A DNA stretch of 64,000 nt from Sideroxydans lithotrophicus (GTDB lineage Bacteria; Pseudomonadota; Gammaproteobacteria; Burkholderiales; Gallionellaceae): assembly GCA_020723185.1 (NCBI GenBank), contig DYJI01000002.1, forward strand, positions 124,001 through 188,000. Direction: 5' to 3'. Of this stretch, positions 28,249-62,480 are shown in pieces. Position numbers and translations under genes: made by a program. The notes under the pieces are model-generated. The model made no database searches. It was not told the origin of the DNA and was given only the letters and a program-made list of their open reading frames with translations. Every line of letters begins with the position of its first letter. Positions within the stretch are counted from its first letter, which is position 1.

Positions 28249-28343
28249 TGCGATTCCTTGCTGGGTTTGTGCGGGCGCGATTTTATCTGATTCCTCGGCG
28301 GTGCGTGGGTTTTGCTACAATCGCGCCCTCATCGAATTTAAGC

Positions 28344-28463
28344 AAAAGCGAGCGAGACGGATGCAATGCAAGGCGCACGGCGCGCAGGAACCGGAATGCA
28401 CATCAAGTGCATGAGGATTCCGAGCACCGTGCAACGCCGCAGTGCGCCGTCGCAGCCGCTTTT
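28344..28463 (+). ncRNA. Putative structured leader repeat, copy 1 (metG 5' region)
   Basis: Nested inverted repeats AAAAGCG/CGCTTTT, GACGG/CCGTC, GGCG/CGCC, GCACGG/CCGTGC, CGGAAT/ATTCCG, ATGCAC/GTGCAT; homologous to 61951-62084. Confidence 0.5.
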
Positions 28464-28478
28464 CAAGGAAGAACCCGA

Positions 28479-30560
28479 ATGACCCGCAAGATATTAGTGA
28501 CCTCCGCCCTGCCCTACGCCAACGGCAGCATCCACCTCGGCCACCTGGTCGAATACATCCAGACCGACATCTGGGTGCGCTTCCAGAAGATGCGCGGCAA
28601 CGAATGCCACTACGTCTGCGCCGACGACACCCACGGCACCCCCATCATGCTGCGCGCCGAGAAGGAAGGCGTCACGCCGGAACAGTTGATCGCCCGCGTC
28701 TGGCAGGAACATTTCGACGACTTCTCCGCTTTCCACGTCAACTTCGATAACTACGGCTCGACCAACTCAGCCGAGAACAAGGAAAGCGCACAGAGCATCT
28801 ACCGTACGCTCAAGGCCAACGGCCTGATCGAGGTGCGCTCCATCGAGCAGTATTTCGACCCGGTCAAGAACATGTTCCTGCCGGACCGTTTCATCAAGGG
28901 CGAGTGCCCCAAGTGTCACGCCAAGGACCAGTACGGCGACAACTGCGAAGTGTGCGGCGCGGCCTACGCCCCCACCGACCTGATAGCACCGTTCTCCGCC
29001 GTGTCCGGCGCCAAACCTGAACTGCGCAACTCCGACCACTACTTCTTCAAACTCTCCGACCCGCGCTGCCAGAACTTCCTGCGCGAATGGACGCGCGGCG
29101 GCTCGCTGCAAGCCGAGGCCGCCAACAAGATGCAGGAATGGCTGGGCGCGGAAGGCGAGAACAAACTGACCGACTGGGACATCTCGCGCGACGCGCCCTA
29201 CTTCGGCTTCGAGATCCCCGATGCACCGGGCAAATACTTCTATGTGTGGCTGGATGCGCCGGTGGGCTACATGGGCAGCTTCAAGCAGCTGTGCGCGAAG
29301 ACCGGCATCGATTTCGACGACTACTGGAAGCAAGGCTCCGACGCCGAGCTGTATCACTTCATCGGCAAGGACATCCTGTATTTCCACGCGCTGTTCTGGC
29401 CGGCCATGCTGCAGCACGCAGGATTCCGCACGCCGACCAAACTGTTCGCGCACGGTTTCCTCACCGTCAACGGCGAGAAGATGAGCAAATCGCGCGGCAC
29501 CTTCATCACCGCGCGCAGCTATGTCGATCACATCAAGAACACCGAATACCTGCGCTACTACTACGCCGCCAAGCTCAACGGCACCATGGAAGACATCGAC
29601 CTCAACCTCGATGACTTCGTGGCCAAGGTGAACAGCGATTTGATTGGCAAGTACATCAACATCGCCAGCCGCTGCGCGGGGTTCATCAGCAAGAAGTTCG
29701 ACGGCAAGCTGGCCGACGTATCAGTAGAAACCGAGATCGACTTCCAGAATGGTTTTCACTCGCTAAATGAAATTGCTCAGGCATACGAACTACGTGATTT
29801 TGCAAAAGCCTTGCGAAATATCATGGCGTTCGCCGATGACATAAACATCTACGTCAATGACAACAAGCCTTGGGAATTAGCGAAGCAAGAGGGGCAAGAA
29901 CAGAAGCTTCATCTAGTGTGCTCTGCCGCACTTGTGTTGTTCAAGCAACTGACTGCAATGCTCAAACCCGTCTTGCCCAAGCTGGCCTTGGATGTTGAAG
30001 CGTTCTTGAACATTAATCCGCTAACTTGGAATGATGCCAAGTCCAAGCTACCCGCCGGCCACACCATCAACGAATACAAACATCTGGCCACCCGCCTCGA
30101 TCCCAAGCTGATCGAAGCGATGGTCGCCGCCAACCAGGAATCGCTGCAGCCGCAGGCGCACTCTGAACAGCGCCATGCCGCACACCAGCAACAGGAAACG
30201 AAGAAAGCCATGACCGAAACTGAAACCACACCATACATCTCTATCGACGATTTCATGAAGGTGGACCTGCGCGTCGCACGCATCGTGGATGCACAGCATG
30301 TGGAAGGCGCCGACAAGCTGATCCAGTTGACGCTGGACATCGGCGAAGAGAAGCCGCGTAACGTGTTCGCCGGCATCAAGTCGGCCTACGCCCCGGAAGC
30401 CTTGAAGGGCCGCCTGACGGTGATGGTCGCCAACCTGGCACCGCGCAAGATGAAGTTCGGCATGAGCGAAGGCATGGTGCTGGCCGCCTCCGGCAGCGAG
30501 CCCGGCCTGTTCATCCTGTCGCCGGATGACGGCGCACAGCCGGGCATGCGCATCAAGTAA
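28479..30560 (+). CDS. metG: Methionyl-tRNA synthetase
   Basis: [50 protein letters not shown]-terminal tRNA-binding domain [31 protein letters not shown]. Confidence 0.95.
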
Positions 30561-60354: not shown

Positions 60355-60441
60355 CCCGCCGAGGGGCGCTGCAGCAGTCACCACATGGTGAATCTGTCAG
60401 GCTCGGCGGAGATGGCTCAACATGTAGCAACGGCGCCCATT
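60355..60441 (+). ncRNA. SAH (S-adenosylhomocysteine) riboswitch upstream of ahcY
   Basis: cccgCCGAGGGGCGCTGCAgcagtcaccacatggtgaatctgTCAGGCTCGGcggagatggctcaacatgtagCAACGGCGCCCa; pairs CCGAG/CTCGG and GGGCGC/GCGCCC. Confidence 0.88.
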
Positions 60442-60471
60442 CATTAACTTACCAAATGAATGGAGTGCTTT

Positions 60472-61875
<1,404 letters not shown>

Positions 61876-61950
61876 TTAACGACTTGCAGGTATGATGGCG
61901 AGGGGCGGACGTCAGGTTCGCCCCTCTTAACTTGTAAAAATGGAGAGGGC

Positions 61951-62084
61951 GCCTCGAAAAACCGTAGCGAGCAGTTTGAGTGCAAGGCGCACGGCGCGCA
62001 GAAGCCGGAATGTACACAAAGTACATGAGGATTTTGAGCACCGCGCAACGCGGCAATCAGACTGCGCAGTAGGTTTTGCGAGGT
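61951..62084 (+). ncRNA. Putative structured leader repeat, copy 2 (upstream of holin-like gene)
   Basis: gcaaggcgcacggcgcgcag..ccggaatg.aca..aagt.catgaggatt..gagcaccg.gcaacgc shared with 28344-28463; closing CCTCGAAAAACC/GGTTTTGCGAGG. Confidence 0.55.
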
Positions 62085-62090
62085 GAACAT

Positions 62091-62480
62091 ATGCTGCTAC
62101 GACTGCTACTGATCTGGAGCCTGAACTCACTGGCATTGATCGCCGTGGCGAGCTTCGTGCCGGGCATCCATGTGGACGGCTTCATGGCCGCCTTCGTGGC
62201 GGCGCTGGTGCTGGGGCTGGTGAACACCTTGATCAGGCCGATCTTTCTGGTGCTGACTTTGCCGGTCACCGTGCTGACGCTGGGGCTGTTCATCCTGGTC
62301 ATCAACGGCCTGATGTTCTGGTTCGCGGGCTCCATCCTGCGCGGCTTCGTGGTCGACAGTTTCTGGCATGCCGTGCTGGGTGCCCTGCTGTTCAGTATAT
62401 TTTCATGGGCGCTGTCCGCAGCCGCCGCACAACTATTGGTGAGGAAACATGGGAAACCCAACCACCCCGATCAGCTTTGA
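62091..62480 (+). CDS. Phage holin family IV-like (PF04020-type) small membrane protein
   Basis: MLLRLLLIWSLNSLALIAVASFVPGIHVDGFMAAFVAALVLGLVNTLIRPIFLVLTLPVTVLTLGLFILVINGLMFW; sits between ahcY and metF. Confidence 0.8.
   Translation: MLLRLLLIWSLNSLALIAVASFVPGIHVDGFMAAFVAALVLGLVNTLIRPIFLVLTLPVTVLTLGLFILVINGLMFWFAGSILRGFVVDSFWHAVLGALLFSIFSWALSAAAAQLLVRKHGKPNHPDQL

Follow-up and report, generated by a model that had tools for sequence, protein, structure and literature searches.

The structured element that lies in the 5' leader of metG and recurs downstream of ahcY within the window (the whole stretch of 64,000 nucleotides analysed, G000:C2:124001-188000 of a 2.6 Mb genome) is very probably a palindromic MITE that IS5-type transposases mobilize in trans, a reading to which a probability of about 0.86 is given. 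The family is read as MITEs because its terminal inverted repeats (TIRs) are specific to lineages, TNA duplications flank its copies, and the same ends occur on IS5 elements; from these sequence comparisons we infer movement by transposases of the IS5 type. As expected of MITEs, the element is short, bears TIRs, lacks a transposase gene and is dispersed in multiple copies, its orthologous sites being filled in some species and empty in others. Target duplications of the IS5 type (TNA or YTAR) were found at the level of the family and at a third copy in the genome (TTAG/TTAG), and an autonomous IS5 element with the same ends was found both in the sister species G102 and in Xanthomonas. A puzzling structured repeat is thereby explained, and the question is raised of why the hairpin tip persists from phylum to phylum although ends and arms do not.

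Two copies of the element in the window

Both copies placed by the original prediction were found, on the same strand. Copy 1 (28344..28463, plus strand; 126.7 bits with covariance model R1) is bounded by a left outer arm (28344..28360, plus strand) and a right outer arm (28447..28463, plus strand), which together form inverted repeat I1, and contains a conserved apical hairpin at 28391..28419 (plus strand; CCGGAATGCAC-ATCAA-GTGCATGAGGATT), whose pattern is common to several phyla. As had been described, it ends 15 nt upstream of the ATG (position 28479) of metG, encoding methionine--tRNA ligase (28479..30560, plus strand; NF001100, 966 bits). Copy 2 lies between ahcY, encoding adenosylhomocysteinase (60460..61875, plus strand; TIGR00936, 612 bits), and a gene for a membrane protein of the Phage_holin_4_2 type (62091..62480, plus strand; PF04020, 114 bits). 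Its predicted location was correct, but the span proposed for it (61951-62084) is too short, since comparison of filled and empty sites places the outer limits at about 61947..62088 (plus strand), with ends GGGCGCCTCGAAAAACC / GGTTTTGCGAGGTGAAC, so that the copy stops just 5' of the ATG at 62091. Its conserved apical hairpin occupies 62005..62033 (plus strand; CCGGAATGTAC-ACAAA-GTACATGAGGATT). A SAH riboswitch (60355-60445; RF01057, 59 bits) precedes ahcY, and the holin-like gene that follows copy 2 is accompanied by a methylenetetrahydrofolate reductase gene.

Each copy folds into one long hairpin, as predicted, with energies of -64.1 and -66.3 kcal/mol and fold z-scores of -6.1 and -6.5 for copies 1 and 2, respectively (0/200 shuffles as good); against dinucleotide shuffles, both copies reached z-scores of about -5 to -6 on either strand. 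BLAST E-values against other copies in the same genome range from 1e-19 to 1e-28, and the repeat is therefore not a product of chance. Consensus scans detected neither promoter nor terminator inside the element at the two window copies, and a search of Rfam at the gathering threshold returned no match at the element and no riboswitch. No clean target duplication is visible at these two copies; the orthologue of copy 2 at L204 is flanked by GAAA/TAAA.

Occupancy of orthologous sites

Comparison of 30 loci from species of the genus revealed the full element in the metG leader of three species (G000, G090 and G051) and an apex-deleted remnant in that of four (G061, G058, G064 and G043), the other sites being empty. 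In the empty leaders, a promoter-like TTTTGCTACAATCGCG and the RBS are mostly close together. A TACAAT motif situated 5' of the insertion (28316..28321, plus strand in the window) is kept upstream of metG in filled and empty species alike; this conservation marks it as the likely -10 box of metG, although it was not among the promoters called by the consensus scan, and for the same reason the metG copy is probably transcribed as 5' UTR. The ahcY/holin-like site is filled in G000, G064 and G001 and without the element in other species of the genus, G058 being empty despite a 100% identical holin-like query segment. In other species (L209, L212 and L225) the same spacer carries unrelated palindromic repeats, and it looks like an insertion hot spot.

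The presence of filled, apex-deleted and empty orthologous sites indicates decaying insertions rather than a conserved leader. The proposal of a metG leader element thus does not hold, its apex having been lost in 4/7 carrier species and the element being absent from the rest; a metabolite-sensing leader in particular is ruled out by the empty and decayed sites. Nor are copies concentrated ahead of start codons on the sense strand, a pattern that had been proposed as a check: of 114 copies elsewhere, 55 have a 3'-side gene running in the same direction and 59 one running in the opposite direction, as judged from simple and crude ORF calls with the element masked. The element is not conserved in a fixed orientation ahead of one particular gene, as a cis-regulatory leader would be.

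Distribution of the family

The suspicion of a dispersed repeat was borne out, with three good and several decayed copies in the genome and relatives in other genomes. The third good copy, located by BLAST at C2:204926-205070, 17 kb beyond the window, has the ends CAGGTTGTTGAAAAAC...GTTTTTCAACAGCCTG with TTAG on either side, and two decayed copies (53 and 33 bits) were detected on the minus strand of other contigs with a covariance model built from 26 relatives. The copies in this genome look like fossils. A fourth copy, L055:1501-1729 (G000:C10:53708-53936), combines the same arms with a different centre, longer by ~100 nt; no Rfam match was obtained for this element.

Of 151 family genomes sampled, 88 matched a 75-nt core. 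The exact motif CCGGARTGYAC-N2-8-GTRCATGAGGAYT, whose chance expectation is estimated at about one or fewer in the whole collection, gave at least 120 matches in a GTDB scan, and the matches listed include Gallionella, Rhodocyclaceae, Polaromonas, Herbaspirillum, Xanthomonas, Pseudomonas, Legionella, Desulfobacula, Chlorobium and others. Related elements occur in Proteobacteria, Chlorobi and other phyla. Viral contigs, plasmids, phages and E. coli almost entirely lack the element, and in E. coli a partial match at best was seen in 2/5426 genomes; ERIC copies are normal in E. coli genomes, and the element is therefore not ERIC. In Bacillus sinesaloumensis (L158:620-3937, also L143), at least 13 tandem units of 271 bp lie 3' of a 23S-5S pair, each combining the same apical hairpin with the 3' portion of a 5S rRNA gene and a tail that resembles a terminator.

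Terminal inverted repeats, target duplications and candidate IS5 partners

Across phyla the elements share one layout, namely a constant tip, differing but paired arms, and an outermost inverted repeat of 15-20 bp that is specific to the lineage: GAGCGGCTAACAAAAC in Xanthomonas, GAACCTGTTCACGATCT in Chitinimonas, Pseudogulbenkiania, Formivibrio and Herbaspirillum, and CAGGYTGTTGAAAAAC in part of the genus to which the window belongs. Identical 3-bp flanks, nearly all of them TNA, border 18/30 distinct copies in Xanthomonas (shuffled mean 10, maximum 16) and 16/25 in Neisseriales/Herbaspirillum (shuffled mean 5.2, maximum 11); over all lineages, 3-bp duplications occur at 33/112 copies, compared with 9.4 +/- 2.8 when flanks are swapped. 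TIR ends number 26-149 per genome in Xanthomonas and 84-166 in Chitinimonas, Pseudogulbenkiania and Formivibrio, against 0-1 in controls, and judged by these ends there are up to roughly 80 copies per genome.

A link to an IS, which rests on the sharing of 15-17 nt, was sought in four TIR sets and found in two. In the sister species G102, a 1319-bp IS bears the TIR of the element, AGCAGGCTGCTGAAAAAC, and encodes a transposase of the IS5 family (NF033581, 270 bits, cut-off 140). In Xanthomonas, the TIR of the element is also carried by IS5-type elements (L398, 881 bp; PF13340, 96 bits against a cut-off of 34), the transposase frame being interrupted and scoring 104 bits against an NCBIfam cut-off of 110. 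Around the TIR of genus g12 (AGAAGCTGTCTTAAAAAT), paired ends enclosed only elements of 90-338 bp and no IS, and no IS was found for the Neisseriales/Herbaspirillum TIR set. A 1141-bp pair of Chitinimonas ends (GAACCTGTTTACGATCT), considered as a candidate IS, proved to be two elements flanking another gene. A search of the window's own genome for two TIR types yielded no IS, and only copy 3 had an end pair of the first type.

Variants of this architecture were observed as well. Other genera of the family (L341-L361) harbour a sister MITE with ends GGGCACCTCTAAAAATC, another tip and the same TGCAAGGCGC/GCAACGCAGCA arms, with up to 81 ends per genome and TTAA or TGAT duplications in some copies. 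Elements of 90-338 bp with the same ends (L288-L293, L297) carry extra hairpin modules at recurrent points of either arm. In Chitinimonas (L443:204-250), a 46-bp near-perfect palindrome consists of two TIRs alone, flanked by TTA/TTA, and is apparently the element minus its whole centre.

Pairing, covariation and strand

The arms are kept complementary while their sequences diverge. In 52 elements with an arm identity of 33%, cognate arms pair at -43.5 kcal/mol and swapped arms at -26.1 kcal/mol, the cognate arms beating the median swap in 45/52 elements. The alignment of 26 members has 97.6% of cells paired (89.5% when shuffled), 13 pairs changed on both sides and a covariation score of 0.267 (0.109 when shuffled), and pairing drops to 22-47% in slid alignments. 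The covariation anticipated by the original prediction is strong, but selection on a DNA palindrome or arm-templated repair would also produce it; causes at the DNA level, such as arm-templated repair, a cruciform or a single-strand hairpin, would give the same arm pairing.

The replacement of a C-G by a T-A pair in the apical stem between the two copies was correctly recognized. The second stem, proposed as CGGAAT/ATTCCG, is in the wrong register: the 26 family members support GGAACC/GGATTCC with a bulged A, the inner pair of which changes from G-C to A-U to C-G, and in this register copy 2 shows one fully compensatory A-U pair and two G-U pairs on the plus strand. The G-U asymmetry between the two copies had been taken to mean that the plus strand is the RNA. 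When 89 non-redundant elements are considered, the minus strand has more wobble pairs than the plus strand (386 against 284 overall, 344 against 237 in the arms only), and the strand assignment drawn from two copies therefore does not generalize. The sole described RNA of the family, sX9, also corresponds to the minus strand, which counts against the plus strand as the RNA.

The apical hairpin is characterized by a tandem G-A internal loop and a bulged A. The search pattern itself imposes part of the identity seen in its core from phylum to phylum, but the columns just outside the pattern (AA at 98 and 96% on the 5' side; C, G and A at 67, 77 and 71% on the 3' side) are free of this bias and indicate that the tip is the centre of conservation. 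In L418 and L428 the most conserved part carries a compensatory change: the tip stem reads GTTTAT/ATAAAT, with the internal loop CCGGA/TGAGGATT retained.

Relationship to the small RNA sX9

The Rfam family sX9 (RF02228) matches the minus strand of both window copies below its gathering cut-off of 44 bits: copy 2 at 61951..62026 over the whole model (1-76; 37.7 bits) and copy 1 at 28359..28412 (32.8 bits). Several copies aligned with model positions 1-76, at E-values as low as 8e-5 in 23 kb, and the cut-off was passed in 1/299 genomes. The family is among the 20 most prevalent annotated bacterial sRNAs by abundance (PMC9029176), and several sX9 genes are up-regulated under copper in X. campestris (PMC10924375). 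No paper calling sX9 a MITE or transposon was found in a search of mainly open-access literature. Judged by the alignment, sX9 appears to be half of this transposon, one arm plus the apex; counts of sX9, like claims about its expression, call for reappraisal, as a widely annotated "small RNA" would apparently be a transposon arm.

Alternative explanations and proposed mechanism

That the plus-strand hairpin in the metG and holin-like leaders senses a signal and controls the next gene as a cis-regulatory RNA is highly improbable. The stems do covary, the metG copy sits between the conserved TACAAT and the metG RBS, hence is probably transcribed, and full copies are retained at metG in three species; yet apex and core are deleted there in 4/7 carriers and the site is empty in the other species, copies elsewhere stand in all gene arrangements (55/114 with a co-directional 3'-side gene), a riboswitch match in Rfam is absent, and wobble pairs favour the minus strand. 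This last point agrees better with a trans-acting sRNA family of the sX9 kind, in which the minus-strand arm and apex would be functional and the copies would be sRNA genes. The end-to-end alignment of sX9 with the minus strand, its prevalence (PMC9029176) and its copper response (PMC10924375) speak for such a family, which is nonetheless improbable: the palindrome is copied as a whole along with its TIRs and target duplications, unlike a promoter-bearing gene, neither promoter nor terminator was found at either window copy, both copies score under the sX9 gathering cut-off, and MITE-derived sRNAs are known as by-products (PMC5896051).

A different machine, in which a HUH/RAYT-type enzyme or a host replication factor recognizes the single-stranded hairpin apex and IS5-like ends are only acquired, would suit an apex far more conserved than the ends and the preference of 52 unlike elements for their own arms (-43.5 against -26.1 kcal/mol). 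It is nevertheless decidedly improbable, as TNA duplications and TIRs shared with IS5 are the outcome of IS5-type transposition. HUH elements produce no such target duplication and need no TIRs. Variable ends around a constant centre are the reverse of REPINs, which makes a REPIN/RAYT system unlikely. Integron attC sites, considered for the same-strand copies of Formivibrio, were rejected because the copies are scattered and bear TIRs and target duplications.

Under the palindromic MITE reading, the transposase of an IS5-type element, either resident now or present in the past, would bind the element ends, insertion would occur at TNA or YTAR-like sites with duplication of 3 (or 4) bp, and the palindrome would subsequently decay through loss of the apex. 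Copy 1 would probably be transcribed as additional metG 5' UTR and copy 2 as RNA of the ahcY/holin-like spacer, any effect on expression being at most incidental. Besides the lack of a clean target duplication at the window copies, the two TIR sets in which no IS was found and the shortness of the sequence shared with IS ends, two further observations sit uneasily with the MITE reading: conservation across phyla is highest in the apex and the arms still pair, although a plain MITE has no need of a conserved centre, and the near-absence from plasmids, phages and viral contigs leaves the spread between phyla unaccounted for. A tentative extension, somewhat short of even odds, is that the elements form an ancient, modular family of transposons whose ends can be exchanged, in which the apical hairpin is near-invariant in several phyla, the arms change completely yet stay complementary and the TIRs track the local IS5-type transposase. 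If so, the apex would serve the element itself, for instance by binding a conserved host protein or by protecting the DNA or RNA hairpin.

Comparison with known elements

The element resembles IS5-family MITEs in being short and free of ORFs, in its TIRs shared with IS5, in its TNA duplications and in its many intergenic copies; it differs in that nearly the whole element is one long palindrome and that TIRs varying by lineage surround a hairpin core conserved from phylum to phylum. With ERIC / RU-1, the 127-bp enterobacterial palindromes, it has in common its size, a long imperfect palindrome and an intergenic location, whereas the sequence is different. The likeness to sX9 (RF02228) lies on the minus strand, where the left arm together with the apex aligns with all 76 nt of the model (E 1e-5 and 1e-4), but sX9 spans only about half of the palindromic element. 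A precedent for MITEs giving rise to sRNAs is provided by QMITE1 and QMITE2 of Coxiella burnetii, which yield annotated sRNAs, often in 3' UTRs and intergenic regions (PMC5896051); by their description they are set apart from the present family, QMITE2 having direct repeats of 7-11 nt and the QMITE families being mostly confined to Coxiella (PMC5896051).
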